The notes under the pieces: generated by a model
What the model saw: only the letters and a program-made list of their open reading frames with translations
Database searches by the model: none
What the model was told of the DNA's origin: nothing
Made by a program: the position numbers and the translations under genes
Shown: piece by piece, positions 17,411 through 40,844 of the stretch
Layout of the letters: each line of letters begins with the position of its first letter
Position numbering within the stretch: position 1 is the stretch's first letter
From: Rhizophagus irregularis
Taxonomy: Eukaryota; Glomeromycota; Glomeromycetes; Glomerales; Glomeraceae
Assembly: GCF_026210795.1 (NCBI RefSeq)
Contig: NC_089437.1
Span: 1,860,001 to 1,924,000, forward strand
Reading direction: 5' to 3'
DNA length: 64,000 nucleotides

Positions 17411-17592
17411 ATTAGCCTATTTTTACCTTACTTTTTTTTAAATTCTATTGGTTAATTAATTAAAAAGGAAAAAAAATCATAACAATATAACATAAAATTT
17501 CCTTTTATAGTAGAATTTGCAAAAAATTTTATATATGATTTTTATCTTAGGCCTAAAGGTGACCTATCTTATAAATAAGTGAGGTTCTACAC
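17411..17592. mobile_element. MITE family A, left-truncated copy
   Basis: Carries the family A core (TTCTATTGGTTAATTAATTA, CATAAAATTTCCTTTTATAG) and the right end with GGTGACCTATCTTATAA. The left TIR is eroded. Intact relatives are at 27647, 29828 and 33329. Confidence 0.8.
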
Positions 17593-19119
17593 TATCTGTA
17601 AATAGTTTGTATTGAAATGTATTTCCTTAATTATACAAATTAAAAATGATCTGAAATGGTAAATATAATTCTAGAATTAATACCTATTTTTTTAAATAAC
17701 ATTATTAGAATCCATCTAATATTTCATTTTTTATAATTATAGAAGTTAATAATTCTTGACTTGAAATAATTATTAATGAAGATTAAATAAAAAATTAATA
17801 TATTATAACGAAATGCAAGAATTAGTTTGAAAAAATTAACAGTTAATTAAATAAAAGTAAATATTAATATTAATATTTGTATTATTATAGTTTTTTTAAT
17901 TCTTAATAATTATTGTTAATTTCAAATCATTTAGTTCTTTTGAATAATTTATTTGATTATTAAACAGATTTAGTGTTTCTCACAAGTCAAGTCAAGTCAA
18001 GTTTTGAATTAATTTTTTATATGATAAATTTGTCCTATACTAATTTTTATAATACTTTAACTAAATTTAAATTAGTAATTATTGTTATAAAAAAATTATA
18101 TAAATTTTGAATAGAGAGAAACAGTAATACTAAAAAAATTTATTTGAAAAAAAAAGTATCTATATAACTATATAATTTGTATTTATTATCAAATTTCTTG
18201 TTTTTCATCAATATTAAATATTTAGAGATTTGGTATATTTATTTTACATCATTTTTTAGTTTAAAAACTTTGAAATAAAATTTTTAGAAGAAAAAATTTA
18301 TTTTTGTAAATAAAAGTATAACAAATATATTAATTTGTATAGTAATAATCTATAATAATGTAAATAATTTGAATAATTTTATTAAATATAAGTGTGTATT
18401 AAAAATTACTATTTATACATTAAAGTATTTTATATACTAATATACTGTATATTAAAAAATTATCATTAAATAAAAGTAATAATAAATAGTTATTAAATAA
18501 AAGATTATATCAATTATAAAACCAAATAATTATTAGTTTTATGTAATCACTGCAGAAAACTACCTTACAATCAACCAGAATATCATCATAACACTATAGA
18601 TAATTATAATGCAACTAGTATAGGTAATAACTTATAAAGATCATGAAAGCCTTCATGCAAAAATAAATCACAGTTAAATTACAAAGATTATAAAAGCAAT
18701 AAAACTTAAAAAGACTGCTACCAATTTATACCTTCATTAGTCACATTCTAATTATATGACTAGAATAAGTAGATGAAAATATAAGTAAATGAAAATATAG
18801 GTGAAAATATAATTTAGGATAAGTAAATAAAAACTCAATTTGCAGTCTTTAATCTGCAGTTTTAAAGACTGCAAATTGAGTTTTTATCTACTAATATTAA
18901 GTAATATTTTATTATAACTATAAAAAAAAAGAAAAATAAAATGTGAAGTAACATTTCATTATAATTTCATTTTTTTTCACATTTTGTTATATAATAATTA
19001 ATAAAAAAAACTTTTTTAAAAATTAAAAATAAAAGAATATTTACATATTTCAGAAACTAGAATAGTAAGACATATTATATAAAAAAAAAGAAATATCAGT
19101 AAATATTTCATTGTATAAT
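17593..19119. other. AT-rich gene-free stretch left of the MULE
   Basis: No coding sequence. Extremely AT-rich. Contains the 26-bp-arm hairpin at 18827-18887 and otherwise nothing I can name. Confidence 0.5.
18827..18887. repeat. Perfect 26-bp inverted repeat with 9-nt loop
   Basis: Arms 18827-18852 and 18862-18887 are exact reverse complements (core CTCAATTTGCAGTCTTTAA), separated by TCTGCAGTT. It could be a terminator-like or fold-back remnant. No adjacent gene uses it. Confidence 0.95.
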
Positions 19120-19399
19120 TATTAAAAAGGGTTTTGTTTTTTATCGCACCCGCGACATGTCGTATGGTCAGCGCCGCAGAATATTATTGGTGCAAATTTT
19201 GTGTCCTGATTTTGTGGCGCGGAAAATTTGCGAAATGTAACGCAAATTTATCCATCTTTTTTTATCCAATAACAGGTGATCGAAGAAAAAAAATTTTTTT
19301 TTTTTTTTTTTTTGATTTCGTACTGATCAGTTTCGTTCCGTCTTGACCTCAAAAACAAAAACGTAAATTTTCATTTTTGTTTTTTTTTTGTTTTGGTTT

Positions 19400-20215
19400 T
19401 TCTTTTGATTTAGGAACGTCAGCTTACGTTCCTTGCCTTCACAGGACGGCCTTCTTGAATGTAGACTTCGGGTTGAACGCGAAATTGTGATAGGAGCTTT
19501 CCTTTGCTTTTTTTTCCCTTTGATTTAGGAACGAATACTCATGTTCCTTTCTTTTTTTTTAGGGACGAACCTTGAATATTTTATCAACTTGGTTTGGACT
19601 TCAAAATCGAAAAAAAAGGTAAAGTTTTCAGTTTTGTTAAGAACTTTGATTTAGAAACGCTACTCACGTTCCTTTTTTCTTCTTTTCTAGAGACGAACCT
19701 TGGATATTATATCGATCTCAGATATTATATCGGCCTGGGCTTCAAAACAAGAAAGAAGTAAGAAGTAAGTTCTTGTTTTGTTTTTTTTTCTTTTTAATTT
19801 AGGAACGCTACTCACGTTCCTTTTTTTCTTCTTTTCTAGATACGGACCTTGGATATTATATCGGCCTGGACTTCAAACAAGAAAGAAGTAAGTTCTTGTT
19901 TGTTTTTTCTTCGTTTTAATTTAAGAACGCTACTCACGTTCCTTTTTTTCTTCTTTTTTTTAGTTTTTTTTAGGATGGACTTCTCAGAATGTAGACAATG
20001 GCTCGGACTTCGAAATTGTAAGTAGGAATATTTGATTTTTTTTTCCCTTGATTTACGAATGATATTCATGTTCTTTTTCTTTCTTCTTTATAGAAATGGA
20101 CCTCGGACATTGTAGATTATTCTTGGGTTTCAAATCGTAAGTGGGACAGTGTTTTTTTTTCAATTGAGGAATGCTTTAACGTTCTTTTTCTTCTTCTTTT
20201 ATAGGGATAGACCCT
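19400..20215 (+). repeat. Micro-exon/intron tandem array 1, left TIR copy
   Basis: Units of about 113-150 bp, read on the plus strand (inward from the left end). The inverted repeat AGGAACG...CGTTCCT encloses CTACTCA, so CTCAC can act as a branchpoint. It is followed by a pyrimidine tract, TTTCTAG, an exon-like segment of about 48 nt (core GACCTTGGATATTATATCGG), then GTAAGT. Hairpins lie near 19411, 19527, 19651, 19800, 19924, 20053 and 20166, the last two decayed. No open frame runs through the exon-like parts. Confidence 0.8.
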
Positions 20216-20551
20216 AGGTGTTAATTTCCTTCCTAAATTGAATGTGTGAATAATTATGATGTATATGTCTGCATTTCGAATTCTAAAATCTGGAATCATG
20301 TAAAAAATTAAAAATACACTTTTCATTTACGCTTTATATTGACGTATCTCATTATTGAAATCGTAAACTAACTTCTAAAGAATAGTTTAATAAAGGTCCT
20401 ATTGTAATGTATGTTACAAGTATGTAGATAAAATTACCAAAATTAAAAAGAATTTCTTTGTTGATTTCACTATCTTTATTTTGGTTTTATAATTATAATG
20501 TTTATTATAGATCATTGTTTCTTTAAACATTAATTAAAGTCAATATAATGA

Positions 20552-23059
20552 TTATTTCCTGCTACAATTTCGTTTATTATGACCCATACTACCACATTGA
20601 CTACATTTGTATTGTTTACTAATTACCGATGATGAATTTTTTTCATGACTTGCTTTAATTCTTTTTGTACCTTTAGGACATCCTTTAGATTTCGTTTGTT
20701 TATTTGGATTGTTGAGAATAAAAGAATGATTTTCATGATTTTCTTTGTTGTCATCAAATTCATCATCCAATTCATCATCCAATTTTTCACCATCCAATTC
20801 ATTATCATCATCCAATTCACTATCACCACCTACATTTTCATTTTGCTCTTCATCTTTTAAATAATCCTCTAAAATAGATATTATACGCATATCTTTTTTT
20901 TTTAGTGCTTTTATGGTAGCTTTATGTGTTAAACCAGTAATTTTACCATATAATTGTATATCAGTAAGACGTTCATGCAGAGTGATAGAATTTTGCGATA
21001 TTTGATGAATTACAGTTAAAAATGGAACATTGTGTTGTGGAATAATAGGTGGAGTATCAGATTCAAATTTACTAGCAACCAGAAATGGTTCTTTATTGGC
21101 ATCCTTATTTCTATAATACCATCTTGAAGGAATAAGTTTTAAGTGAAATTTGGCTGTAGGACTACAAAGCATTATTTGAAAATAATGTCTGCAAATGATT
21201 CCCTTATTAATAAGAGATAAACAAGAACAATAATGTGATCCATTTGTTAATAAAATAACAAAATGTTTCTCAACAAGTTTGTTTTCAACAGCTACAGTCC
21301 ACATAGACATAATTTGATTTTTATTAACATCAGAAATCATACAAGATGCAGTAATTTGACGAGCATCAGGTATATCTTCTAAATGTTGATTGGTAGGCAA
21401 TTGATACTAAAAAATACAATGTTAAGTTAAATGTAATTAAAAATGCATCTTACTATAATAAATGTACTATACCTCTTCAAATTCACTAATAACTTCTTGA
21501 TTGACTTGTAAAGCACTATAAAAAACACACTGCCTAATTTCATTTCTTTGAAGATCCAATATAGCAGGAGGCAAATATTCTTCAAGTTTCTTATCAATAG
21601 AAGTGAACATAAAGGATGGGATGGAAATCTGAGTAGATATACAAGGGATTGCAGCTTTCTATAGTATAAGCTGATGTTTTTTATCTTCAGATATTTGCCT
21701 TTTATCAATTACTTCAGCAAGTTCACACAAAGAAATATTTGAATTAAAAATATAATTTTTTATCCAAGCATTTATACTTTTGATGGGAGATGATGCATGA
21801 AGCCCTGCTGTAAATTTCCTACATGTCCAAGGGTGAGCCCATGCTTCTTTAGTATTATAAAGAGTATTAGTTAAATACTGCTTTGCTTCGGGATATTGAT
21901 TGATTAAAGTTTGCCATTTTGATTCAAAAATTGGTTTGTGCAATGTATTACGTGTTGCATAAAATTGTGTGGAAAATTCATAAAATCTTTTTCCAAGTAG
22001 TTTTTGAAGTTTTTTAATTAAATTTTGATTTATATGAAACGTACAATGCATTGGATATGTAGTATGAAATGTAGATCTGATTGCAGCATAAACAGCCGGA
22101 TCTGCATCTGTCATCATTACTTGTGGATGAATATTATTTGTTGCTAAATTAATTTGTTTAAATGCCCATTCATGTGATTCTTTTGTTTTATCAATTAATA
22201 AAACTTGAGCAACAAGTCTTATATTCCGATTTTCATCAAGAATCACAAATAAACTTAAAGCCATATCATACCTATTAGTTTTACAAGTTACATCCTGTAT
22301 TACAATATCAGAATACTGATACCAAAGCTCTATTTGTGATGGTGCCATCTAGAATAAATGGGTGAGAGTATTTTTATCATCAAATTTAATAGCTACTTTC
22401 CAAAGTGGATTATTCTGTGAAGATTCAAGCAATTTTGCATATAATTTAGCAGCATCATTGCTATCATTTCTACTAGTTTGAGGACGAAAATATTGGATGG
22501 CTTGATACAAGTCATTATTGTAAATTAATTGTCCTGAAAACTTTGCCTCAAGATATTGCCTTTGAGAAGTAGCTCCCATTTTACACTGAACAGTAAGAAA
22601 CTCAATTTCTTTCATAATCTCAGAAAGTATTTGCTTGTTATCTCCAAATTGAATAATATCAGGATTAAGATTATGTGAATGAGTATTATTAAATGTAGTA
22701 ATATAAACATGTTTAAAGGGATTATTAGAAAATGGTTCTAAAAGATTAATATGCCAAGTACAACCTATACGCTTTGTTTTTGTTTGTTTGCCATTAGATT
22801 TTGTATTGTAATCACCTTGATGTTCACATTGTATAGTGCGTTTACGTAAAGTTCTATCAGGGTTTCATTCAACACGATTATATATGATATTAAAGCCTTG
22901 TTGCTTCGCCCAACTCTCAATAATGTAGAAAGCTTGATCCCAGGAAGTAAATACTCTTCCTTTATACAAAAGTGTTTCGGTTGACTGGCTTGAATTGCTT
23001 TCATTTTGTGGTGAAGAATCTGTAGTGTCAAGAGAAGGTAATTCACTTTCGTGAGACAT
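20552..23059 (-). pseudogene. MULE transposase (FAR1-type, DDE, SWIM, CCHC knuckle), three premature stops
   Basis: One reading frame runs from ATG 23059 to the stop at 20552 with a 66-nt intron (21407-21472): 813 codons if stops are ignored. It is broken only by TGA at 22865-22867, TAG at 22349-22351 and TAG at 21659-21661. Order of domains: FAR1-like N-terminus (SWDQAFYIIESWAKQQGF ... GCTWHI ... HSHNL); MULE DDE core with D in VIQDVTCKTNRYD and D in MMTDADPAVYA; the third acidic position appears as Lys in SSPIKSINAWIK where relatives usually have Glu; SWIM finger CSCLSLINKGIICRH; acidic stretch; CCHC knuckle CSQCGSMGHNKRNC. Without these lesions it would cut and paste the surrounding element. 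The upstream TIR supplies its presumed leader. Confidence 0.9.
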
Positions 23060-23539
23060 AATATTTTATGTTTAAAGAAAAAAATTATTTACTTCGTGTT
23101 GCGCGATTAAATTATTAATAGTTATAACACAAAAATTTATTGGCAGTGATACAAAAATTTATTGGATTTGCGGTAATACAAAGAAAAATTTACATGTAGA
23201 TTGTCCTGCATTCTATTTAGAAATCTAGCAAAAGTGCAGACATTTTTACAAGTCACAATCAAAATCCGATATCATAAAAAGGTAACAAAAGAATGTTGGT
23301 AACATCCTAGATCAAAAATGCTAACGAAAACTCTACTTACAATTTGAAGTTCAAGGATGACATTTACCAACATCTTATGGCACCTCCTTCTTTTGAAGAA
23401 TGAAATAATATTGTCTCTTCTATACCTAATAACAAAGTTCAGGACAACAATAAATCCAATACGAAGTGCTTAAACATCTTAAAATATTCCAAATTGATAC
23501 AAATCTGCATTCAAGAAATCCAGTTTTAGAAAAAAAAGA

Positions 23540-24375
23540 AAAAAGTAAGCAGCGTCCCAAGTTAAAAGAAAACATCAAGATACGAATACCAAAACTACTT
23601 ACGATTTAAAAATGGACTCTACATATAACATCCAAGATCCCTCCCTATAATAAAAGAAAGAAACACGCTCTAAAAAAAGAAGAAAAAAAGAACGTGAGTA
23701 GCGTTCTTAAATTAAAACGAAGAAAAAACAAACAAGAACTTACTTCTTTCTTGTTTGAAGTCCAGGCCGATATAATATCCAAAGTCCGTATCTAGAAAAG
23801 AAGAAAAAAAGAACGTGAATAGCGTTCTTAAATTAAAATGAAGAAAAAACAACAAAGAACTTACTTCTTTTCTTGTTTAAAGTTCAGACCGATATAATAT
23901 CCAAGGTCGATATAATATCCAAGGTCTATCTCTAGAAAAGAAGAAAAAAAGGAACGTGAGTAGTGTTCCTAAATTAAAAAGAAAAAAAAACAAAACAAGA
24001 ACTTACTTCTTACTTCTTTCTTGTTTTGAAGCCCAGGCCGATATAATATCTGAGATCGATATAATATCCAAGGTCCGTTTCTAGAAAAGAAGAAAAAAGA
24101 AACGTGAGTAGCGTTCCTAAATCAAAGTTCTTAACAAAACCGAAAACTTTACCTTTTTTTTTCGATTTTGAAGTCCAAACCAAGTCGATAAAATATTCAA
24201 GGTTCATCCCTAAAAAAAAAGAAAGGAACATGAGTATTCGTTCCTAAATCAAAAGGAAAAAAAAAGCAAAGGAAACTCTTCCTACTCACAATTTTGAAGT
24301 CCAACCTGAAGTCTACATTCCAAGAAGTCCGTCCTAGAAAGAAGGAAGGAACGTAAGTGACGTTCCTAAATCAAA
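23540..24375 (-). repeat. Micro-exon/intron tandem array 1, right TIR copy (upstream of transposase)
   Basis: Inverted copy of the left array, reading on the minus strand toward the transposase start. Each unit shows GTAAGT-type donor, hairpin GAACG...CGTTC and TTTCTAG acceptor in the sense of the gene. Hairpins are at about 23690-23711, 23811-23831, 23952-23971, 24105-24120, 24226-24246 and 24345-24368. Further decayed units continue toward 23225. The placement makes it a candidate multi-intron 5' leader of the transposase mRNA. Confidence 0.8.
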
Positions 24376-24652
24376 AGAAAAACCAAAACAAAAAAAAAAC
24401 AAAAATGAAAATTTACGTTTTTGTTTTTGAGGTCAAGACAGAATGAAACTGATCAGTACGAAATCGAAAAAAAAAAAAATTTTTTTTCTTCGATCACCTG
24501 TTATTGAATAAAAAAGATGGATAAATTTGCGTTAGATTTCGCAAATTTTCCACGCCACAAAATCAGGACACAAAATTTGCATCAATAATATTCTGCGGCG
24601 CTGACCATGCGACATGTCGCGGGTACGATAAAAAACAAAACCCTATTAAAAA

Positions 24653-26019
24653 ATGTTAAAAATAAAGTTTTATTAAAAAAATTTGATAAAATGTATATAA
24701 ACATTTTGTTAAAAAAAAAAAATTTTTTTTTAAAGGAAAAATAAAATGTTAATAAAGTTTCATTATATAATTATTTTAAAAAAAAAGAAATGCCAAGTAT
24801 TTTGTTAAAAAAAAGAAATATTTCAGAAGTATATATATACTTTCAAAATGCCATTTTAAAGTTTAATCAGTTATAAACTTATAGCTGATCATCTTAATGA
24901 TTGAACAACTGCAAATGCTATATCTTTAAAGTTTAAATCTTTATTTTCTTCACTTTATTTCTAGAAATATAAGCTATGATAATTATTTTTAATTAAAAAA
25001 AAAACTTGACAGCTTAGTTGTTAAATTATAAGACATAATAATTATTAACATTATGTATTTAGTATATGGATGTTAATTATCATGTTAAAGAATTAACTAG
25101 TATTGATTAATATGTATACTGGTATTAATTAACACTTATAAAACTTATTGATACTTTATATTTTTTATAAGTATCAGTATTATATTGTATTCTAAGTAAT
25201 ATTAAATTAAACTTTCTGTATAAAATACATTTCCATTATAAGAAAATCATTTAACTCTTTAATTATATATAGAAAAATTCATTCTAATGCTAATATTACT
25301 AAAGTATTTATTTAAGATAATAACTTAATTCAATCTTAGTATTCTACTTTATTCTTAAATCCTTTAGAAAATTTAACCAAATTGTTTTTTTTAGATTAAC
25401 TGTTATGCATTTATTAAAAAAAAAATCAGGCTATATAAAAATACAAAGAGAACAACCTAGACTAAAGTAACAAAATAAACTACTCATCATCCTAATTAAA
25501 ACCCTACAAATGTATAATCAAATAGTTTAAAGCTATATAGATGTAATTTTATTTAGAAACAAACTTTATCTTAACCTTTTGCAGATCCTGTAGTCTTAAC
25601 TTAACAAACTACAAACTAATACTACTATAGACTGTATTACCATTATAAAAATATCAAAAACAAAAAAAACAAGAAAAGGTTAAACCCCCTTATAAATTAT
25701 GATCCTCATAAGATTCTCCCACCCATCAGCAAAATGGTATAATCAAATCTATTTAAATAGCCTAAAAAGATCTTAGATCTTATCTATTAACGAATATAAT
25801 TGTGACTTATAATTGTACAAATACAAAATGCAAACATGTCATATTTCAGAGTTGACATGTTTTGGAACAGAAACTCATAGTCATAAGAAAATTTACAGAA
25901 CTCTTCTAATATCTAAAACAGTAATACAGCAACATTTTTTATCTAATTTCAAGTAGATACACAGGATCCCGCCTACTACTAATAAGATATGTTACCAGTA
26001 AAAATTTCACTTTCATATG
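24653..26019. other. AT-rich gene-free stretch right of the MULE
   Basis: No coding sequence or intact element recognised. TnAn tract near 24710-24735. Confidence 0.5.
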
Positions 26020-26175
26020 AAACCTTACCTTAGGATTTGCTTAAATTCTATTGGTTAATTGACTAAAAAGAAAAAAAATCATAACAATGTAACATAAAAT
26101 TTCCTTTTATAGTAGGATCTTTAAAGAGTTTTATATGTAAACCTTACCTTAGACTACAAGGTAATCTATTTTAAT
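26020..26175. mobile_element. MITE family A, degraded copy
   Basis: Retains the core (TTCTATTGGTTAATTGACTA, CATAAAATTTCCTTTTATAG) but both TIRs are eroded. Confidence 0.7.
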
Positions 26176-27646
26176 AATAGGCAAGGTCTTAGATATACTA
26201 GATCTAACCAATTTTTTTATTTAAGTAATCTAATATTTTTAATTTTAATAATTACTCTGCTGATTAACTTAAATTAATAAAAATTAAAAACTAAAATCCA
26301 TTAATCCCATCAGCCTCTTAAAATGACCGATCTACATAAATTTAAAAAAGTTATCTTCAGTCCAGCAGATGATCAACATTTCAGTACTTCTAGCTTTTCA
26401 AAAAAAAACAAAAGTAAAAACGCTAAAATTCTAAGAAAAAAGAAAAAACTAAAAAAACAAAAAGGAAAGTCATAACCTCAAAAATTTCTAGAGAAAAAAT
26501 TGAATAAAGAAGATAATAAATATCAAGCCTCTGTCTATTACTTTAATATTACAAATAACAATTGATAATAAAAAAAATACCTGGTTCATAAATAACTACT
26601 TTAACTTCAACTTGCATTTCAAGGAAAAACCTTTGAAATACTTCTAAAAATAAAGAAACTAACAGAAAGACTTTATACTAGTGCAGAGTTCAAAGCTCAG
26701 CTATCCAGTATATAACTATTACAACTTTCAGAAATCTAGTAGAAAAAAAGCTTTGCAGAAGTAAAATTATCTTTAGTGAAAACTGCTTTATAATTTTGTA
26801 ATTCTATTAAAACTTTGAGTTAAAGATTCATTTAAATCTTGAAAGAATGACTGAGAAATTTAAAAACATATTAAAAGCACTTTATAACCGCTTAAATGAA
26901 AAAAACAAGTTTTTTCTTTAGCAATTTCTACTAGAAAAATGGTCAAGTGATTAGTAGGTAAAAAATATAGTTAATTCTAATTATATTTGACCAAATTGTT
27001 TTGTAAATTTATATATTTTTTTATGATACTATTAATTCCTTTAACATATTAAGTTCTACAGTAAAATATTATAAGTAATTTTATAAGTTATGTAGATTTA
27101 CTAAAATAAAATATAAAATAAATCTAATATAAATCTTTACTTACTATATAAATAAAAACTTTTTCTTATAATTCTTTGATTTTACTTATTTAAATTCTTA
27201 TTAAATACTAATTACTAGTATAAGGGAATGTTTTATTTAACTAATTCAATTTAATATTAAATGTAATCTTATTTAAACAATTAGTACATATAAAATAAAA
27301 TTAAAATAAAAAAGAATTGTAATGTTCTTCTAAAGATCTTTATATATAATGGTTTGCATTTAAATAGTATCTAAACAAATTACTAAAACAATTCAAATTT
27401 ATATAACTAAAATTTTAAAATAAATCAATATTACATCTAAAAAGATGGATTATATATCAAAATATTTGTTTTATTGAGATAAATTTAACAAGTCAAAGAT
27501 CATTAAAATTTAATTACTGGATTCTAAAATAGCAAAATTTAAAGTTAAAACTTTATATATTTAAAACAAAAATTAAATATAAGATTTATATAAATTTAAA
27601 TCTAAGTTTTTTTAATAATCTTTGAAATTCTATCTAGGTCTATATA
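26176..27646. other. AT-rich gene-free stretch
   Basis: No ORF above background and no recognisable TIR. Probably decayed repeat sequence. Confidence 0.4.
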
Positions 27647-27870
27647 GGACCCCACTTACTTATAAGATAGGTCACCCCTAGGCCTAAGATAAAAATCATA
27701 TATAAAATTCTTTGCAGATCCTACTATAAAAGGAAATTTTATGTTACATTATTATGATTTTTTTCCTTTTTAGCTAATTAACCAATAGAATTTAAGAAAA
27801 AAGTAAGGTAAAAACTATTAGTAAAGGGCTAATTTTCTATGATGATCTTTATTATAAGTAAGCAAGGTCC
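27647..27870. mobile_element. MITE family A, full copy (inverted orientation)
   Basis: TIRs: GGACCCCACTTACTTATAA on the left, reverse complement of GGACCTTGCTTACTTATAA on the right, 224 bp. The core CATAAAATTTCCTTTTATAG is in reverse orientation relative to the copies at 29828 and 33329. Confidence 0.88.
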
Positions 27871-28507: not shown

Positions 28508-28510
28508 TTA

Positions 28511-29036
28511 CACAGGTCGAAAAGTGAAAAATCAGGCACCAATCAGTCACCAATCAGGTAGCTGATTGGTGACTGATTGGTGACTGATTGGCATTTTCGC
28601 CAAATCTTGCGTCGCAATCAGGCAGTTTGCTAACTTTTGATCCAGTGATCAGAAAAAGATGAAATATAGCTCATTGGAATCGTCTCAACATAACGAATCT
28701 AATGGTAGTAAAATCGCATTTCTAGGATTAATACTTGATGAGAAATTAAGTAAAATATAAAAATAAAAATGTATCATTTATATTTTATTTAATTTTTTAT
28801 TAACTATCAATCCTAGAGATGTGATTTTACTACCATTAGATTTGTCTTGTTGAGACGATTCCAATGAGCTATATTTCATTCTTTTCTGATCACTGGATCA
28901 AAAGTTAGTAAATGCCTGATTGGTGACGATATTTGGCGAAAATGCCAATCAGTCACCAATCAGTCACCAATCAGGTACCTGATTGGTGACCGATTGGTGA
29001 CTGATTGATGCCTGATTTTTCACTTTTCGACCTGTG
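28511..29036. mobile_element. Fold-back element B, copy 1 (ends CACAGGTCG, 3-bp TSD TTA)
   Basis: A 526-bp near-complete palindrome. Both ends read CACAGGTCGAAAAGTGAAAA inward, and the arms extend to a short AT-rich centre near 28765. Flanked by TTA (28508-28510 and 29037-29039). The arms contain CCAATCAGTCACCAATCAG-type short repeats (7-10-bp units). No ORF. A second copy lies at 36591-37127. Three-bp TSD plus CAC-starting ends would fit a CACTA/CMC-type or Harbinger-type mover; the superfamily is inference. Confidence 0.93.
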
Positions 29037-29039
29037 TTA

Positions 29040-29827
29040 AAAAACTTAAAAATTGTTAAAAATAGAATTTGAAAATATTTATTATTACTAAAAAACTAAA
29101 ATAAAAAGATTATTTCACATTTTTTGAATAGACTTTAGATAGCAAAATTTATATTAACAAATAATATATTAGAAATAATTGGACAAGTAAATATTGCATG
29201 ACTCTTTGTTTTTTATAGATATAATATATTAATAATTAAAATCATACATAAATATATATTTTCATAAATATTATTTTCAAATAGTATTTCGCACAAATTG
29301 AATTTTTTTTTAATATTTAATTTGATTTACTAGACTTGACTTAAAGTCTCAAACTCAATTTGAATTTCAAAAAAATATCTTATAATCTAGTAAGAGGATA
29401 GGAATTATATAATATTATGTGATATTCAGTTTAACTTCTTCTTTTCAGATTTAATAATCAATCAAATTGTATTATATAATTTTATTAAATATAAAATAAG
29501 ATTTTAGTTACCTCTTTCCCCTCTTTAATAATTATGTAATATCTGTAAACTCTTTAATTTAATTTTAATAATTTTTTTAATCAATAACTTTCATTACCCT
29601 AATTAAAATAAAAAATTGTTAAAATCAGACTACTAGATTAAAAGTTATTTGAAAAAATATTTTTACTCTCAGAATTAATTAAAATTACATATATTATAAA
29701 TCAATTTATACAGAACATTACTTTTAAATAAAACATCAGCATCATACATATAAATTTTAAAACAATCTTAATGAGATAAATAATGGAATATCACCATTTG
29801 TTATTATTAGTAATACTGATATAGATA
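29040..29827. other. AT-rich gene-free stretch
   Basis: No coding sequence. A relic resembling the repeat at 37320-37400 (GTTACCTCTTTCCCCTC ... TATGTAATATCTGT) lies near 29508-29548. Confidence 0.4.
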
Positions 29828-30049
29828 GGATCCCACTTACTTATAATAAAGGTCACCATAGAAAATTGGCCCTTTACTAATAATTTTTACCTTACTTTTT
29901 TCTTAAATTCTATTGGTTAATTAGCTAAAAAGGAAAAAATAATAACAATGTAACATAAAATTTCCTTTTATAGTAAGATCTGCAAAGAATTTTATATATG
30001 ATTTTTACCTTAGGCTTAGAAGTGACCTATCTTATAAGTAAGTGGCATC
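29828..30049. mobile_element. MITE family A, full copy
   Basis: TIRs GGATCCCACTTACTTATAA on the left and the reverse complement of GATGCCACTTACTTATAA on the right, same core as other copies. About 222 bp. No convincing target duplication. Confidence 0.88.
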
Positions 30050-30283
30050 ATACTACAACTACACTCCTAAAATTAAGACTATCAGAACATTCTTTTGAAC
30101 TTATCAAGATGCTTCTAGCTTTTTAAGCATTAACCTTATTTCTGTTAATATAGTTAGCTTATCAATACCGCCTAAGGTCTTAATCTATATTCTTGATTTC
30201 TTTAGTTACCTTTTGCTTCTTACTCAACTGATTGTTAGAATTAGTTGTTCGTAAAACTCTGAATTTAACCTAACTGATCAGAT

Positions 30284-31941
30284 TAGAGGTGTGCTCTGGT
30301 GAAATCCGTTCAATCCGTCATCTGATCCGATCAAAAAATGGATCACCCGGATTAAGAATGAACGGATTGCGGATAATCTGGATGGATCTGTTGGATAACA
30401 TCAGATTGATCGGATATTACACGGATGACTGGATTGACCGGATTGATCAGATAATCTGGTCAAATTCATAACTTTTTTTTTTTTTTTTAACATAAATGTT
30501 TTTTTTTAAAAAAAAAAACACCTTTTTTTCTTTAGGACAGACTTGGACTTGGACTTCGGAACGACTTGGACTGCTTGAATTTCAAAAAGTAAGTGTAAAT
30601 TTCTTTTTCTTTTATCTTGGGAACGTCACTAAATGTTCCTTTACTTCATTTCTTTAGGGGATGCCTGCCTGGAACTTAATTTCGGCTTGGGCTATAAAGG
30701 TAAGTTGGGGGAGGGTAATTTTGATTTTTTGTTTGTCTTTGGGAACGTCATTAACGTTCCTTTTGCTTTTTTTCTTTAGGAAACGCCCTCCCGGATTTGA
30801 ATTTCATAAAGGTAAGTTGGGAAGGGTATTTTCGGGGTTTTTTTTATCTTTGGGAATGTCATTAACGTTCCTTTTGCTTTTTTTCTTTAGGAGACGCCCT
30901 CCCAGATTTGGATTTCATAAAGGTAAGTTGGGAAGGTTATTTTTGAGTTTTTTTTGTCTTTGGGAACGTAATTAACGTTCTTTTTGCTTCTTTTCTTTAG
31001 GTGACGCCCTCCCAGATTTGGATTTCATAAAGGTAAGTTGGGGAAATTATTTTTGAGTTTTTTTTATCTTTAAGAACGTAATTAACGTTCCTTTTGCTTC
31101 TTTTCTTTAGGTGATGCCCTTCCTAGACCTGGATTTTGGCTTGGGCTATTAAAGTAAGTTGGGAGGGTGTTTTATCTTTTTTTTTTGTCTTTAGAAACGT
31201 CATTAACGTTCCTTTTGCTTCTTTTCTTTAGGAGACGTCCTCCCGGATTTGGATTTCATAAAGGTAAGTTGGTGAGGTTATTTTTGAGTTTTTTTTGTTT
31301 TTGGGAACATAATTAACGTTCCTTTTGCTTCTTTTCTTTAGGTGATGCCCTTCCTGGACCTGGATTTCGGCTTGGGCTATTAAAGTAAGTTGGGGAAGGG
31401 TTTTTTATCTTTTTTTTTTGTCTTTAGGAATGTAACTAACGTTCCTTTTGCTTCTTTCTTTAGAAGGACGCCTCTTGGACCTAGATTTCGGCATGGGTTA
31501 TAAAGGTAAGTTGGGGGAAAAGTATTTTTGTTTTTTTGTTTTTAGGAACGTAATTAACGTTCCTTTTGCTTCTTTTTTTTAGGGAGACACCTTCTTGGAC
31601 CTCTAAATCTTAAACTTTTTATAAATATTGTGTCAACTAATTTGTTAAAAATCATTTGTAATAACGTAAAAATAAATACTATGTTTATTATTATAAAATT
31701 CTAATTGTTAATTAATATTAATAAAAAGTATTAAGTAGAAAAAACTGAATTCGGATTCATTGGATTCACTGGATTGACCAGATTATTCAGATATCCCGGT
31801 CAAATTGGTGAGCAAGTATTGACTGGATATCCGATAATCCATTCGGTCAATCCGATGAATTATTCGGATCAATCTGAATCTAGTCAAATTTCAGATGGAT
31901 GACTGGATATCCGGATTGACCGGATTCAGAGCATACCTCTA
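30284..31941. mobile_element. Non-autonomous element C with 8-bp TSD GATCAGAT (hAT-like ends)
   Basis: Ends read inward TAGAGGTGTGCTCTG and TAGAGGTATGCTCTG. Exact 8-bp flanking repeats GATCAGAT are at 30276-30283 and 31942-31949. Length 1658 bp. Subterminal regions (30300-30470 and 31750-31925) are dense in GGATTGACCGGAT/ATCCGGAT motifs in both orientations, the kind of cluster transposases bind. The interior is micro-exon/intron array 2. No transposase, so non-autonomous. 8-bp TSD and TAGAG ends fit hAT; superfamily is inference. Confidence 0.9.
30530..31600 (+). repeat. Micro-exon/intron tandem array 2
   Basis: Nine successive intron-like segments of about 69-82 nt, each GTAAGT(TGGG)...TTTCTTTAG, alternate with 'exons' of 32 nt (for example 30780-30811) or 42-43 nt (for example 30658-30699). 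Each intron has GAACGTAATTAACGTTC or a close variant 25-30 nt before its 3' end; TTAAC is a plausible branchpoint. Exon cores (GACCTGGATTTCGGCTTGGG) are related to those of array 1. Exon lengths are not multiples of three and no frame is conserved, so a protein-coding role is unlikely. Confidence 0.85.
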
Positions 31942-33328: not shown

Positions 33329-33551
33329 GAATCCCGCTTACTTATAATAAAGGTCACTGTAGAAAATTAGCCTTTTACTAATAGTTTTTACTTTACTTTT
33401 TTTTTAAATTCTATTGGTCAATTATCTAAAAAAGAAAAAAATCATAATAATGTAACATAAAATTTCCTTTTATAGTAGAATCTGTAAAGAATTTTATATA
33501 TGATTTTTACCTTAGGCCTGGGGTGACTTATCTTATAAGTAAGCGGAGTCC
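33329..33551. mobile_element. MITE family A, full copy
   Basis: TIRs GAATCCCGCTTACTTATAA and the reverse complement of GGACTCCGCTTACTTATAA, same core as the other copies, same orientation as the copy at 29828. It directly abuts the transposase remnant that follows. Confidence 0.88.
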
Positions 33552-33559
33552 TGTTTAAT

Positions 33560-34941
33560 TACAGTTAAAGATAGCGCTGCAAATAGGCAATTGCAGAATA
33601 ATTGTAATTTGTGGTATTGCAGAACATTGCGAATTTTGAAGTTTAAATATCTGCTGAAGCGCAAAAAAATAGCGAACATCAAATATAAAGTTCGTGGGCT
33701 TGCAGAAACTTATCTTATTGGAAATCTGAACTTAAAATTAGATATTTCAAATTCTATTTCTTATTTAACGGAGCAGGGATATCATATTAAAAAGTATTGC
33801 ATCTCTTAATGGTCTACCAGAGGTATTGTATTTGTGCATCCGGAACAATTAAAGAAGCTTGAGCATCATGAATGGTTGACACTTATAGATTCAACACATA
33901 AAACAAATCGGTATGATTGGCATCTATTTACTCTTTACGTCTGTAATACCTATAAATGTTAGAACATAAATGCCTATTTTTTTGTAAATAATAAAGATGC
34001 AGATACAGTTGCAGAAACTTTAATAATAATCTGCAATAAGTATTGTTGTTATTCTTCCTGTTACATACTTTCAGATCATAGTAATATCAAAGCTAAGAGC
34101 ATTAAAAAGACATTTCCTGGCATGACCGCTGGTGAACAAGAGTGCCAAGTTCTCCTTTGCATTGTCCATATTATGAGAATGTGGATGCAAAAAATTCATG
34201 AAAAAAAACTTGAGACATTATGATCGCGGTGATGCATAAAAGAACAAAGATTGGATGCGAAAGTCTTATTCAAGATGCTATTAATTTTTGTCCCGTTCCT
34301 TCTATACAAAGTTATATTAAAAGGAACTATATGAAAAATACTGAGAAATAAGGCTTATGGGGGAACCGCAACATTCTATGCTTTTACGAAGTTTTACAAT
34401 CATTTTAACGAATTTGCTAAAATCTTTTCATAGTGAATTAAAGAAACAACATTTTTATCACATGAATTGATTTGTACATGATGATTTTTATTTGGCTATT
34501 TTGCCCGTATGCCCAACTCAAAACTCTTATATTTTAGGTGCTGCTCATAAAGTTGTCAATGTTGATTGCAAAAAAAGATCTGAAGCCAAAAGTGCATCTT
34601 TTGATTTTTGTATCAAGAAAATATCTGCGTATGGTGTTGATATTGATATTCTTGAAGAAATCCAAAAGTTCCCATTCCTGTTTCAACAATTAATCATTAG
34701 AGAAGCCTGTGCTGTGATGAATAGACTTAAAAAAAGAAAAAGTACGACAGGTCTTACTTCTCTTGATTATTTCTGCTTGTTTCACTATCGATATTTATTG
34801 CCCTGCAAGCATATTTTTCACGAATACATGTACAGCAATAAATTGTTAACTACCGATGTATGGCAAATATTTTGTGAAATTTTTGAAGAAAGTGGGTTTG
34901 AAGTGTATGAAAGTCAAAAATCATTTATAGAATATGTTTAG
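33560..34941 (+). pseudogene. Degraded MULE transposase of a second lineage
   Basis: Fragments in changing frames give recognisable MULE pieces. Around 33830-33960 the segment LEHHEWLTLIDSTHKTNRYD contains the first catalytic Asp in its usual D-x-T-x-K-T-N setting; later a segment reads ILSDHSNIKAKSIKKTFPG (second Asp region), then VLLCIVHIMRMW. The longest open part is 34492-34941 (149 codons) and contains a SWIM-like CLFHYRYLLPCKHIFHEY near its end. Several stops and frameshifts separate the parts, so it is long dead. It differs from the transposase at 20552-23059. Confidence 0.8.
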
Positions 34942-35530
34942 ACAGAGCAACAGAAAAATGCTAAAAATTGAAGAATTACTATGGAAAAATTAACCAAAAG
35001 AATGTGTGATAGGTATTGGCGTGTTGAAAAGATGGGTGATGTTAATCTTTTATTTCTATATTAGAAGCCTCTGTCGGTGAATCTGATTATTTTGCAATTT
35101 GATAATAATTCAAGTGGAAAAACTTAGAAATTAGAATTACTTATTAGTATTTTGATACTAATAAATGTACAAGGTTGTATTGGGTTCTGATTATTGTGCG
35201 GGCTTGGTTTCTTAAATTATTACAAATTTTTTTTTATGTAGATAAAACTATGAATTTTTTTTACGAATTTTTATTAGAAATTTTTACGAATTTTTTATAA
35301 GAAAAATTACATTTTAAATTCAAATAAAACAATAAAATCAATAAATACTAGGATGGGCCTTTTTTATTTTAATTAATTTTTTTAAAAATTTTTAATTTTT
35401 TTATTAATAATTTATTGATATATTGATATTTTTAAGAAATTTTACTTTGCTGGAATACATTTTTTTAGCCAATTATCATTTTGTATTCTAACAAAAAATC
35501 ATGTGATCCTTCCGGTTAATCGCCACTTCA
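34942..35530. other. Gene-free stretch
   Basis: AT-rich. May include the decayed 3' part of the preceding element. Nothing else recognised. Confidence 0.4.
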
Positions 35531-36543: not shown

Positions 36544-36590
36544 AAATTTTTCACCCCACATGACCTCATAATATTCATTACTGGTATTAT

Positions 36591-37127
36591 CACAGGTCGA
36601 AAAGTGAAAAATCAGGCATCAATCAGTCACCAATCGGTCACCAATCAGATACCTGATTGGTGACCGATTGGTGATTGATTGGCATTTTCGCCAAATACTG
36701 TCACCAATCAGGCAGTTTGCTAACTTTTGATCCAGTGATCAGAAAAGAATGAAATATAGCTCATTGGAATCGTCTCAACAAGACGAATCTAATGGTGGTA
36801 AAATCGCATCTCTAGGATTAATAGTTAATAAAAAATTAAATAAAATATAAATAATACATTTTTATTTTTATATTTTACTTAATTTCTCATCAAGTATTAA
36901 TTCTGGAAATGAGATTTTACTACCATTAGATTCGTCATGTTGAGACGATTTCAATGAGCTATATTTCATCCTTTTCTGATTACTGGATCAAAAATTAGCA
37001 AACTGCCTGATTGGTGACGGTATTTGGCGAAAATGCCAATCAGGCACCAATTGGTTACTAATCAGATACCAATCAGCTACCTGATTGGTGACCGATTGGT
37101 GCCTGATTTTTCACTTTTCGACCTGTG
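36591..37127. mobile_element. Fold-back element B, copy 2 (3-bp TSD TAT)
   Basis: Same ends (CACAGGTCG) and same palindromic body as 28511-29036, 537 bp, flanked by TAT at 36588-36590 and 37128-37130. The arms contain the same CCAATCAG/ACCAATC clusters. It apparently inserted next to or into element E. Confidence 0.93.
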
Positions 37128-37319
37128 TATGCCCTACCACATTTTCACTGTTTATATTTATCTGAGGGACTTAGTTTTTTTTGTTATTTTTTTCACAACC
37201 TCTTAAATGTCACCGGTCATGTGGGAGTAAAATTTTAATTATAAAATTGGTGGTGTTACTACGGTAAATGGTTAATCACAATCATGTCATGTGATTTGCC
37301 TCCGCTTTAGACGACCTTT

Positions 37320-37857: not shown

Positions 37858-40844
37858 TATCATCAGTAAATTTTTTAGAACATGGATCCTTAAAGATTTC
37901 TTAAATTGTTTTGGAATCCTTAAGGATCCAGTAATTTACAGAATCCTTAAAAATCCTTAGATAAATTATAAAGATCTTTAAGGATTCTATGAATTGCTGG
38001 ATTTCTAAGAATTCCTAAAAAAAAATCTTTAAGGAATCCAAATTTAAATCAATAACTATTAATATAAAATTCAGTTATATATCACATGTATCATGTGATA
38101 TATACATTATCCAGCTGATCATTTTTTTTTTAAAACTTTTGTCTCCCTCTTATCTCTAATAATATTCCTCTTTCCTCTCTCACCTTTCCCTTTCCCGCCC
38201 TTTCTCTTCATCCCATTATTTCCCTTCTCTACAAAATCTATAACAAAATATGATTTTTTTTTAGTTGGCAGTTAGATTCCGCCATTTCGGTAAGATTTTT
38301 ATTTATTTTTAAATATTTAATTAACTCTTCTAACAATTTCATTTTCTTTGTTTTTTTTTAGACAGTTCTTTTAGATTTCTTTGAAGGTGATATTCTGATA
38401 AGTTTTAAACTTTTTTTTCTTCTTTTAACGAACAGTTTCTAATAATTCGTTTCTTTTTTTTTTTAGGGATTTTTTTACAGTAAGTTGTTTTTTTTATAAT
38501 TTTTTTTTACTTCTTTAACAAAACATTAACTAATGTTTTATTTTCATTTTCTATTTTTTTAGGCGGTCGGGCCTTTTCTTTTTAAGTTCTTTCAGGTTTC
38601 TTTAGTATGCAGCATTTCAGTAAAGTTTACATTGGTTTTAATTTTTTTATTTTATTTTAACAATATGTTGCCTTAACTAATATTTCGTTTTATTCTTTTT
38701 TTTTAAACACCTTTTTTTCAGATGCTTGAACATAAATTTCGGCAAGTAATAGGACTTTTGGCAAGTAAACAAAAACAAAATTTCATTTTTTTTTATATTA
38801 ACGAACATTACTAACTGTTCGTTTTCCTTTTTTTTAGGTGGTTTTAAGCCTTTTTGGATGTGAAATACTGGCAAGTAAGAAAAAAAAACTTTTTTTCTTT
38901 TGTTTATATTAACGAATATTACTAACTATTCGTTTTTCTTTTTTTAGGTAGTTTTGAGCCTTTTTGGACGCAAAATACTGGCAAGTAAAAAAAAAAAACT
39001 TATTTTTTTTCTTTTTGTTTATATTAACGAACATTACTAACTGTTTGTTTTCTTTTTTTAGGTGGTTTTGAGCCTTTCAAGACGCAGAATATTGGTACGT
39101 AAGAAAAAAAACCTTTTTTTCTCTTTTTATTTATTTTAACGAACATTACTAACTGTTCGTTTCTTTTTTTAGGTGGTTTTGAGCTTTTCCAGAAGTGGAA
39201 TACCAGTGCATAAAAAAAAATTTCTTTTTTTATTTTAACGAATATTACTAATTGTTTGTTTCTTCTTCTTTTTATAGTTTGTTTTAAGTCTCTAAGCTTA
39301 GGATATTAGTAAGTAAAAAAAGTTTTTTTTCCTGTTTATTTTAACAAATATTACTAACTGTCTGCTATATATATTTTCTTTTTTTAGATGATTTTTCAAG
39401 TCTCTCTTAACATAGGACTGATATAAGACTGATTCACAAATCACATTTATCGATTAGATATTATTAATGATTATAACATTTTTCAATCTTTTGAATGAGA
39501 CATCCATTCTACAAGATTCTAAAGAAGAAATAATGCATCACTTTTTACATTAAATACAGTCTCAAGAAGGGTTGAAAAATTATCAAGATCAATTTTGAAA
39601 ATATTATAAGATAGAATATGTGGAATGGAGGTTAGATTACGATAAATAAAATTTTTTTTTTAATTTTTTTTATATTAATGAACATTATTAACTATTCATT
39701 TTGTTTTCTTTTTTTTTAGATAGATTTTCAAATCTCTTTTAACATAAGACCAGTAAGTAAAAAAAACAATTTTTTCTCTTTTTATGTTAATGAACATTAC
39801 TAACTGTTCATTTTTTTCTTTTTTTAGGCAGTTTATTCAAGTCTTTCTGGATTTTAGATATCGGTAATTAAGAAAAAGATTTTTTTTTTCTTTCGTTTAT
39901 TTTAACGAACACTACTAACTGTTTGTTTTATTCTTTTTTTTAGGCTTTTTTAAGGTTTTTTTTGACGTGGGATATTAATAAAGTAAAAGAAAAAATTATT
40001 TAAATTTTTTTATTTTAATGAACATTATTAACTGTTCGTTTTTTATTTCTTTTTTAGATGGGTTTTTATATCTCTGGACATTATAGAGTAAATGTTGTGT
40101 TTATAACGAAAGTAGCAGAATATTCTCACATTATTTTTGCGACATAAAAGGTGAACATTAAACACGTGTTTGGAATTATGTTGCGATCTGCCAATCTGCC
40201 CCACGTTTCAATTCTGCAATTTGATCTTTAATAGGATTGTGATGGTCATGAATACTGGCAGGTAAAAATAAAATTATTTTAATTTTTTTTAATTTAACGA
40301 ACACTTCTAACTGTTCGTTATTTTTTTCTTCTTTCTTTAAATGTTTTTTTCAGACTGATAGTGTTTAAATTACAGTATCTCAATTATGATTTGTAAAGAT
40401 TCCTATTAATTATTTCCACAAAAATACCAAGCTAAGGTTTTTTAACAAGAAAAGATAGAAGAAACTATTGAATATTTTATAAGTTATTACAATTTAAAGA
40501 TGATGGGTGTATTTTTTTATTTGAAATTTTTTTGTAATCAAAATAGATTTTTTTTAATTATTTTATATTTTATTTAATTCAGAAAAATGTGTAATTAAAT
40601 AAATAAAAATAAATACATTAAATAAATAAATAAATAAATAATAAACCTATTAATAAATAAATAAATATAACAATAAATATCCTTAAAGATTCCTTATTGT
40701 AAATTTAGGATCCTTAAGGATTCTATAGAATTCTTTTAATAGGAAATCCTCACTGATGGAAAAGGTTTTTTAGAGATCCTCATTAATTACGAGATTTTTT
40801 GGAATCCCTAGAGATCCACACCTTAAAAAATTTACTGATGATTA
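37858..40844. mobile_element. TIR element G, about 3 kb, carrying intron-like array 3
   Basis: Ends read inward TATCATCAGTAAATTTTTTA and TAATCATCAGTAAATTTTTT. Both subterminal regions (37880-38040 and 40678-40820) are rich in ATCCTTAAGGATTC-type palindromic motifs. The interior is array 3. No transposase. I could not find a convincing target duplication, so the exact ends are provisional. Confidence 0.72.
38262..40345 (+). repeat. Micro-exon/intron tandem array 3
   Basis: About a dozen units with a typical period of 95-115 bp. Each has a GTAAG donor, a T-rich segment, the inverted repeat AACGAAC...GTTCGTT enclosing ATTACTAACT (with the canonical branchpoint TACTAAC), a pyrimidine tract and TTTTTTAG, then an exon-like segment (for example GTGGTTTTGAGCC ... 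ATACTGGCAA). The best units lie at about 38790-39300. Units on both sides are decayed, and about 39400-39660 and 40090-40290 hold non-repeat insertions. Confidence 0.8.

Follow-up and report, generated by a model that had tools for sequence, protein, structure and literature searches.

Why should a DNA transposon carry, in both of its terminal inverted repeats (TIRs), rows of what look like complete spliceosomal introns? The question is raised by a stretch of 64,000 nucleotides of Rhizophagus irregularis DNA (hereafter the window), in which the initial annotation described the TIRs of a Mutator-like element (MULE) as tandem modules, each consisting of an intron and a following segment of about 48 nt. 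This transposon, element A, and its parts are located as follows.

19,129-24,643, no strand assigned: element A, a MULE DNA transposon of 5,515 bp (ends, target-site duplication, inverted arms and MULE domain)
20,552-23,059, minus strand: MULE transposase gene, a degenerate copy with in-frame stops and its ATG at 23,059 (MULE domain)
21,407-21,472: intron of the transposase coding sequence, without a branch-point hairpin
19,363-20,204, plus strand: left-TIR intron array, pointing inward (profile matches, chain detector)
19,363-19,444; 19,619-19,690; 19,765-19,839; 19,888-19,963; 20,018-20,093; 20,137-20,204 (approximate), plus strand: left-TIR introns
Ending at 19,562, plus strand: left-TIR intron with a broken 5' splice site
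23,670-24,416, minus strand: right-TIR intron array, in sense to the transposase (profile matches, chain detector)
24,334-24,416; 24,210-24,289; 24,081-24,152; 23,932-24,006; 23,792-23,864; 23,670-23,743 (approximate), minus strand: right-TIR introns
23,271-23,605, minus strand: weaker intron-like units extending the leader toward the transposase ATG (model R2)

The termini of the element (GGGTTTTG...CAAAACCC) are flanked by a 9-bp target-site duplication (TSD), TATTAAAAA, at 19,120-19,128 and 24,644-24,652. Its long inverted arms (19,100-19,970 and 23,661-24,672) represent TIRs of about 1.1 kb that are 88-98% complementary in the collinear pieces I1-I5, as expected of a MULE, and a MULE-type transposase is recognised within it (PF10551, E 8.5e-16). 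The 9-bp TSDs of a second copy of A (TTTAAAATA) and of a relative, A' (TATTAATAT), are, like TATTAAAAA, composed of A and T only.

Closer analysis of element A confirmed the tandem intron units in both TIRs. Around six units per TIR, not every one intact, are spaced at 111-149 bp, and each runs from a 5' splice site through a branch-point hairpin and a pyrimidine tract to TAG, with both TIRs pointing inward. Micro-exons are indeed present between the introns, at lengths of about 43-74 nt rather than the 48 nt first given. A splice-chain detector, which ignores hairpins and family sequence and scores chains of consecutive introns on each strand, returned sense chains of 4 introns on the left and 3 on the right, whereas the antisense strand gave 0 and shuffled sequence no more than 2. 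On the left, the 5' splice site that comes first is degraded (GTGATA, against GTGAGT in the other three TIRs), and the left TIR is without one whole unit that the other three keep. On the transposase side, the sequence supports the earlier reading of the splice signals as lying in the sense of the gene and forming a sense-oriented leader. Matches to model R2 (23,271-23,343, E 0.019; 23,524-23,605, E 0.076) carry weaker units as far as 23,271, about 210 nt upstream of the ATG. The exons of this side hold upstream ATGs, a feature that a translation leader would avoid.

The arrays had been taken for a peculiarity of MULE TIRs, a view that their presence in other element types does not support. 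The same grammar recurs in two unrelated elements of the window, B and C.

30,284-31,941, plus strand: element B, a non-autonomous TIR element with an 8-bp TSD, GATCAGAT, and ends TAGAGGTGTGC
30,589-31,582, plus strand: B intron array of nine introns (profile matches, chain detector)
30,589-30,657; 30,700-30,779; 30,812-30,890; 30,923-31,000; 31,033-31,110, plus strand: B introns 1-5
31,154-31,231; 31,264-31,341; 31,385-31,463; 31,506-31,582, plus strand: B introns 6-9
37,860-40,841, plus strand: element C, a TIR element with ends CATCAGTAAATTTTTT (end matches)
38,290-40,329, plus strand: C intron array of about 12 units (hairpin AACGAACA-TTACTAAC-TGTTCGTT)

The ends of B resemble those of hAT elements. 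They have 41 matches genome-wide, of which 36 were treated as left ends, and a related group, B', has the same ends and units that mostly differ from those of B. Among the five B and B' elements with both ends seen, the 8-bp TSD is exact in three (the window copy, CCTCAGAC in L059 and CCCTAAAA in L060), matches at 7 of 8 positions in L071 and is absent from L058, a B element in which no open frame of at least 100 aa was found. The units belong to these elements: 98 of the 100 listed among 365 B matches fall no more than 4.5 kb inside a B end, and the array has a single orientation at all 20 left ends with listed matches, out of the 36. A possible sign of spread to other species is one weak metagenome protein, P0171, which is 47% identical to a frame running antisense to a B array.

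The array of C in the window likewise has one orientation, and the loop of its hairpin contains the branch-point motif. The strict detector gives chains of only 2 here, no better than background. A DDE_1 transposase fragment in another C-bearing locus, L072, was considered as the transposase of the family and rejected, as it belongs to a separate insertion, nested within an array intron, that has CAGTCAA/TTGACTG ends of its own and a TA on either flank; we take this insertion to be a pogo/Tigger element.

Across the 146.7-Mb genome, surveyed at the level of sequence only, tandem rows of intron-like units occur in several unrelated kinds of transposon. Hairpin patterns match at 365 places for family B, 55 for C, 822 for D and 250 for E, while the reversed patterns of these four families have no match. 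Sense chains found by the hairpin-blind detector run to 3-5 introns in A and in a single TIR of its second copy, and to 4 in each TIR of A'; four B elements have 9-20 and three B' elements 2-6. Antisense chains were 0 in the A, A', B and B' elements scanned, shuffles reached at most 3, and the remainder of the window gave at most 2 across 134 tile-strands. In a systematic sample of nine genome-wide signals, six sites lie inside sense chains of 4-11 introns and three have sense chains of only 0-2. Four more distant MULE loci (at most 51% identity) showed no chain above 2, and three array patterns searched in viral contigs had no match. Identity with a catalogued RNA family was rejected for the units, since the window has no Rfam match at gathering thresholds.

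That each unit is a complete intron with a micro-exon is supported by several sequence tests. U2-type GT-AG ends, a consensus 5' splice site, a branch point, a pyrimidine tract and a 3' splice site follow in order, with a weaker 5' splice site in C. An exact GTAAGT is present in 119 of 132 units in the A-core scan and 128 of 152 in the B-core scan (the scans overlap), compared with 2 of 7 protein-gene introns of the same genome and only 18 of 75 C units. In C, the AA of the branch motif CTAAC is kept in 74 and 75 of 75 units. A model built from C alone matched all nine B introns at E no higher than 0.011, and a model from A and B matched eight C units at E no higher than 0.02; the best match outside the arrays was a real intron, that of RRP3 (E 0.27 and 0.18, respectively).

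Splice signals and hairpins form the columns of highest information, and exons and the spacer behind the 5' splice site those of lowest. The initial annotation had named splice sites that are the least conserved positions as evidence against it; mean information per column at the 5' splice site and 3' end exceeds that of exons in A (1.71 and 1.60 against 0.93-1.28), B (1.91 and 1.80 against 1.21-1.38) and C (1.24 and 1.44 against 0.30-0.51), with the splice-site values inflated because the parser demanded GT and AG and chose the best 5' splice site.

On this evidence, the arrays are probably tandemly amplified spliceosomal introns that are spliced from element RNA and kept by selection. The unit would pair a whole intron with a micro-exon of some 30-75 nt and serve as a structural module of several DNA-transposon families. 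Transcription of the element would traverse the array, in A starting at the TIR ends and heading into the element, as occurs in maize MuDR, and the spliceosome would excise the introns. Coding micro-exons were rejected, since most tested exon lengths break the frame (2 of 9, 2 of 6 and 2 of 5 are divisible by three). One spliced A frame is open for 85 codons, longer than expected (4 of 500 shuffles); the corresponding figures are 31 of 500 shuffles for part of C and 185 of 500 for B. What selection retains would then be either the noncoding RNA that results from splicing or the splicing event itself. Selection appears to act on spliceability, because unit sequences differ between families, even between A and A', which share terminal sequence and 9-bp TSDs and have unlike array exons (their likeness is matched or exceeded by 499 of 500 shuffles). 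The case for shared ancestry of the A and B exons is marginal (9 of 500 shuffles did as well); among the other nine family pairs, likeness is clear for B-B' (0 of 500), weak for A-B' (15 of 500) and reached by 98-499 of 500 shuffles in the remaining seven.

Conservation of this kind could also arise in a neutral satellite, in which an intron trapped in a transposon was multiplied by unequal exchange and slippage; the signals would seem conserved only because the units are young and homogenised, or because copies that cannot be spliced are harmful to the host and vanish. The gain or loss of whole units between A TIRs, the variable length of B chains and the low divergence within family B all fit this account. 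We nevertheless consider it unlikely, since several families have unrelated units with splice signals on one strand, and since in the divergent C family the exons have decayed in information relative to the 3' end while the branch adenines hold 1.9-2.0 bits.

The hairpins suggest a further alternative, namely that the palindromic repeats are DNA binding sites for the transposase or a host factor and the splice-like context is secondary. Perfect stems of at least 7 bp occur in 11 of 44 non-redundant array introns (shuffles: mean 0.2, maximum 1) and in 2 of 29 single intron-like sequences that lie outside arrays; 30 of the 44 have no perfect 6-bp stem, and the hairpins of A' are weak. The branch point is held in a hairpin in most families looked at, not universally. 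For C, no more than 1 of 500 shuffles equalled the observed value on four of five covariation measures, and 60 did so on the fifth, pair types; the shuffle takes no account of relatedness among copies. Among 70 listed sense rows of family E with at most 2 mismatches, pairing survives 36 stem departures (34 of them through G-U) and is lost in 9; of those 34, however, 26 are of a single pair type, and related copies are counted many times over. Elements of the hAT type and some MULEs commonly have subterminal repeats, the conserved block that stands out most in B is its palindrome, repeated many times per element, and the stems of A and B lack covariation (370 of 500 shuffles as high). Binding sites are improbable all the same: A' has the ends of A but not its palindrome, the loop allows C or T one base ahead of the branch motif's TA while the adenosine is kept, and the polarity and pyrimidine tract fit splicing, not palindrome symmetry. 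In the spliced-intron reading, the hairpin probably displays the branch adenosine and shortens the effective length of the intron.

Splicing might also serve as camouflage, allowing host transcripts to remove an inserted element via its array and so making insertions less harmful. Ds and dSpm insertions in maize, and introners, are spliced out of host transcripts in this way; the 5' and 3' splice sites here are strong and redundant, and whichever side a transcript enters A from, the first array it meets is sense-oriented. We give this account little credence, as the arrays of B and of C in the window are one-directional and exons of 30-70 nt would stay behind. Least probable of all is the RNAi route raised initially, in which poorly spliced array transcripts would stall spliceosomes and yield siRNA, by analogy with the link published for Cryptococcus (cited in PMC6643885): the weaker 5' splice sites of C accord with it, an exception that the counter-argument does not cover, but those of A and B are near consensus and stronger than in the seven protein-gene introns, the opposite of stalling signals.

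If the arrays are instead efficiently spliced introns, the benefit to the element can be suggested by inference. Most likely, a heavily and efficiently spliced RNA would be expressed and exported like host mRNA, and it may be less readily caught by fungal RNA surveillance. A leader role fails to explain B and C, since the elements of these families seen showed no gene downstream of their arrays.

Several known systems resemble the arrays in part. Schistosome micro-exon genes are chains of very short exons in protein-coding host genes; they keep a coding role, whereas most array exons break frame. Among Mutator-like elements, A and A' are ordinary in their TIRs, 9-bp TSD and transposase, and differ from others with tandem repeats in the TIRs in that each repeat is a complete, inward-pointing intron and micro-exon. 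Fungal introner-like elements and the symmetrical (stw)introns of Hypoxylaceae are sets of many similar introns with inverted repeats or predicted stable structure (PMC8469720). Multicopy intron sequences with inverted repeats or structure, enriched but not universal here, are common to both. Those introns lie in host-gene exons, in Hypoxylaceae without flanking duplications (PMC8469720), whereas the arrays lie within DNA transposons as tandem units separated by short noncoding exons, and the B units, judged by the 98 of 100 listed matches, cluster inside B elements and are not dispersed in host coding exons. In plants, transcripts that undergo splicing are reported to serve less well as substrates for RDR6-dependent silencing (PMC7488869); this is a functional analogy only, drawn from plant genes and transgenes. 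In Cryptococcus, SCANR ties introns to siRNA and transposon silencing (PMC6643885), with stalled spliceosomes setting off RNAi, unlike the near-consensus signals of A and B.

No earlier description of intron arrays in transposons was found among the papers listed by searches of an open-access library, and no word beginning with "intron" or "splic" occurs in the main texts of two papers on the transposons of R. irregularis. Two-thirds of the transposable elements of this fungus are reportedly unclassified (PMC11075540). Any novelty lies in the array as a form of sequence organisation; its carriers are ordinary MULE and hAT-like transposons. More tentatively, and with some doubt, intron arrays may constitute an unrecognised class of transposon module in arbuscular mycorrhizal fungi, with well above 1,000 hairpin-branch-point units in a single genome, in MULEs, hAT-like elements with 8-bp TSDs and a third TIR type at the least, repeatedly evolved or exchanged, and kept because heavy splicing passes the RNA of the transposon off as host mRNA and shields it from RNA-based silencing.

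If the arrays are spliced, they would represent a trait of transposons on which selection acts via the spliceosome and which recurs across unrelated element types in one genome. They would offer a natural experiment on introns and RNA fate, including expression, export and escape from RNAi, together with a large set of sequence-unrelated introns whose branch point is held in a hairpin. They would also reveal a new route by which intron-like sequence builds up in genomes, and would bear on the annotation of R. irregularis.

Element A, the MULE of the window, carries about six tandem units in each TIR, with their splice signals in order, and the initial annotation had rightly described both TIRs as repeated intron-type modules. 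In each unit, a micro-exon of about 43-74 nt precedes a 5' splice site, for which GTAAGT, GTAAAG and GTGAGT all occur; then come T-rich spacer sequence, an inverted repeat (for example, AGGAACG-CTACTCA-CGTTCCT), a pyrimidine tract and TAG. The exon is thus short, as first described, but not of the single length of about 48 nt given then. Units point inward in both TIRs. Those of the right TIR share the sense of the transposase, in agreement with the earlier description, and weaker units there reach to about 210 nt upstream of its ATG. The best named relatives of the transposase come from Rhizophagus irregularis (at most 91% identity over part) and Diversispora epigaea (81%). In-frame stops in the transposase mark the window copy as degenerate. 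Contig C21 holds a second copy (95% identity over 5.2 kb, with its own 9-bp duplication). The assembly holding the window (contig C9, 1,860,001-1,924,000) comprises 146.7 Mb in 32 contigs, and two exons of an RRP3 helicase gene show 98.6-98.9% identity with the R. irregularis protein. Together with the relatives of the transposase, this identifies the host as R. irregularis or a species very close to it.

Elements and repeats in the window
19,129-24,643: element A, with TIRs, a MULE domain and the 9-bp duplication TATTAAAAA
30,284-31,941: element B, with the 8-bp duplication GATCAGAT and nine predicted introns
37,860-40,841: element C, with about 12 predicted introns
28,509-29,040 and 36,587-37,129: a palindromic, MITE-like element present twice, its subterminal repeats of the CCAATCAGTCA type; complementarity of the arms is 85-96%, both inside each copy and from one copy to the other
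27,676-27,863, 33,336-33,523, 17,420-17,589, 26,000-26,198 and 29,836-30,052: short inverted-repeat family (ACTTACTTATAATAAAGGTCAC...), 76-96% complementary
54,717-57,035: element with inverted arms of 141-199 nt containing 23-45-bp tandem repeats

A degenerate stretch at 33,630-35,120 looks transposase-like by eye; a Pfam search with its ORF at 34,492-34,941 gave no match.

The unit grammar is not limited to A, but is common to B and C, two further TIR elements in the same window. The C hairpin reads AACGAACA-TTACTAAC-TGTTCGTT, with the branch-point motif CTAAC within the loop. A covariance model built from C units only detected 9/9 B introns (E 8.5e-5 to 0.011). Among the A introns, four scored E <0.01 and the others 0.06 to about 5, a range overlapping the best match outside the arrays, a real RRP3 intron (E 0.27). 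Conversely, a model of A and B detected eight C units (E 6e-6 to 0.019), and its best non-array match was the same RRP3 intron (E 0.18).

The arrays were also examined with a detector based on splice signals only (GTAAGT, in which one mismatch was allowed, then YTNAY, a pyrimidine tract and YAG, with introns of 55-100 and exons of 15-90 nt), applied to 15 array regions. The longest sense chains of consecutive predicted introns were 4 and 3 in A, 5 in the left TIR of its second copy, 4 and 4 in the arrays of one copy of A' (a related MULE elsewhere in the genome), 9, 15, 18 and 20 in B regions, 3, 6 and 2 in B' (elements elsewhere with ends like those of B), and 2, 3 and 4 in C regions. Opposite-strand chains were 0 in all regions save window C (1). 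Markov shuffles of the array regions reached 1-3 at most, and among 134 tile-strands of 1.5 kb from the remaining window, 94 had 0, 38 had 1 and 2 had 2. Window C, whose 5' splice sites are weaker than those of A and B, and one B' element do not exceed background in this strict test. As the parameters were set after reading A, B and C, the chains of A', B' and sampled genomic sites are the more independent tests.

Units turn over among relatives. A' shares terminal sequence with A, has a 9-bp duplication and TIRs of 1.24 kb with 98% identity between the two, and occurs in a second copy (99.5% identity over 4.3 kb); at the transposase level, seven loci match with 77-78% identity across most of the query length. 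The A' array itself is unrelated to that of A. Four more distant MULE loci have no chain >2, and the trait is therefore not general to MULEs. The ends of B' are 76-80% identical to those of B, its main unit is different, and one B' exon resembles a B exon (0/500 shuffles as good). B arrays keep one fixed orientation within elements: 20 of 36 B left ends have array matches, among those listed, within 4.5 kb inside, and orientation agrees in 20/20. Of the 365 B hairpin matches, 98 of the 100 listed belong to B elements with such ends.

Genome-wide, hairpin patterns matched 55 places for C (at most two mismatches), and 365 for B, 822 for D and 250 for E (at most three), D and E being further hairpin families; some E places are counted on both strands because E is nearly palindromic. 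The A hairpin pattern plus tract matched 7 (at most three mismatches). Read backwards, every pattern (A-E) had 0 matches in the genome. The hairpin-free chain CTAAC..TTTAG..GTAAGT occurs at 613 places versus 219 backwards. Every twelfth of 100 listed matches gave nine sites, with sense chains of 4, 1, 5, 5, 11, 2, 7, 6 and 0; shuffles reached 3 at the site with 4, and where the sense chain was 1, the other strand carried a chain of 4. Several sites carry stems of distinct sequence (GAACGGTTA/TAACCGTTC, AAAGAAACG/CGTTTCTTT, AAAGAAACAT/ATGTTTCTTT). Sampling covered one genome and 82 loci, many overlapping. At L075 (G000:C1:3,444,900-3,446,700), a four-intron chain lies opposite the sampled signal, with intron-like signals on both strands close by. 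At L072:965-3100, an element with a DDE_1 domain, presumably pogo/Tigger-like, is nested in an intron of a C-type array. A 123-aa metagenome protein (P0171, 2.9-kb contig) shares 47% identity with a frame on the antisense strand of a B array, and may point to a B-like array in some other organism.

Within units, splice sites are not the least conserved positions: the 5' splice site and 3' end exceed the exons in A, B and C. Mean information per column at 5' splice site, hairpin, 3' end, exon and post-5' splice site spacer is 1.71, 1.66, 1.60, 0.93-1.28 and 1.40 in A; 1.91, 1.76, 1.80, 1.21-1.38 and 1.19 in B; and 1.24, 1.52, 1.44, 0.30-0.51 and 0.65 in C, the first three figures being biased upward, since the hairpin served to locate units and only those with GT and AG were accepted. 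The four free 5' splice site positions in C still hold 0.4-1.2. Branch-motif adenines are present in 74/75 and 75/75 C rows and in 70/70 E rows listed. Only a minority of the exon lengths tested (2/9, 2/6 and 2/5 in three sets) are divisible by three.

The hairpin is frequent in array introns, not universal. Perfect stems of at least 7 bp occur in 11/44 non-redundant array introns (shuffle mean 0.2), 10 of them enclosing a branch-point motif, and 30/44 have no perfect 6-bp stem. Stems of at least 6 bp occur in 0/7 protein-gene introns and in 3/29 intron-like singles outside arrays (two of at least 7 bp); A' has weak hairpins only. C stems covary, with seven cells changed on both sides (reached by 1/500 shuffles), and their pair-type count is unexceptional (60/500), the shuffle in both cases ignoring relatedness. 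The covariation test found no such signal in A+B stems.

What might maintain these arrays? A purely 5' leader, in line with the splicing-dependent leader initially proposed, agrees with A and A', but no gene is seen after the array in B and C. The palindrome as a DNA-binding site fits poorly, having been replaced between A and A'. Stalled splicing, suggested earlier as feeding RNAi, also fits poorly, as A and B sites are near consensus. The limits of these three accounts favour efficient splicing as the property that would be selected. In plants, splicing reportedly lowers the suitability of transcripts as substrates for RDR6-dependent silencing (PMC7488869). In R. irregularis, small RNAs are loaded onto AGO, and eight AGO genes have MULEs nearby (PMC8647823); the main texts of PMC8647823 and PMC11075540 contain no word starting with intron- or splic-. 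Judged from sequence, RNA-level selection for being spliced would be the simplest account fitting the families seen, and its likely benefit to these elements would be better expression together with escape from RNA surveillance.
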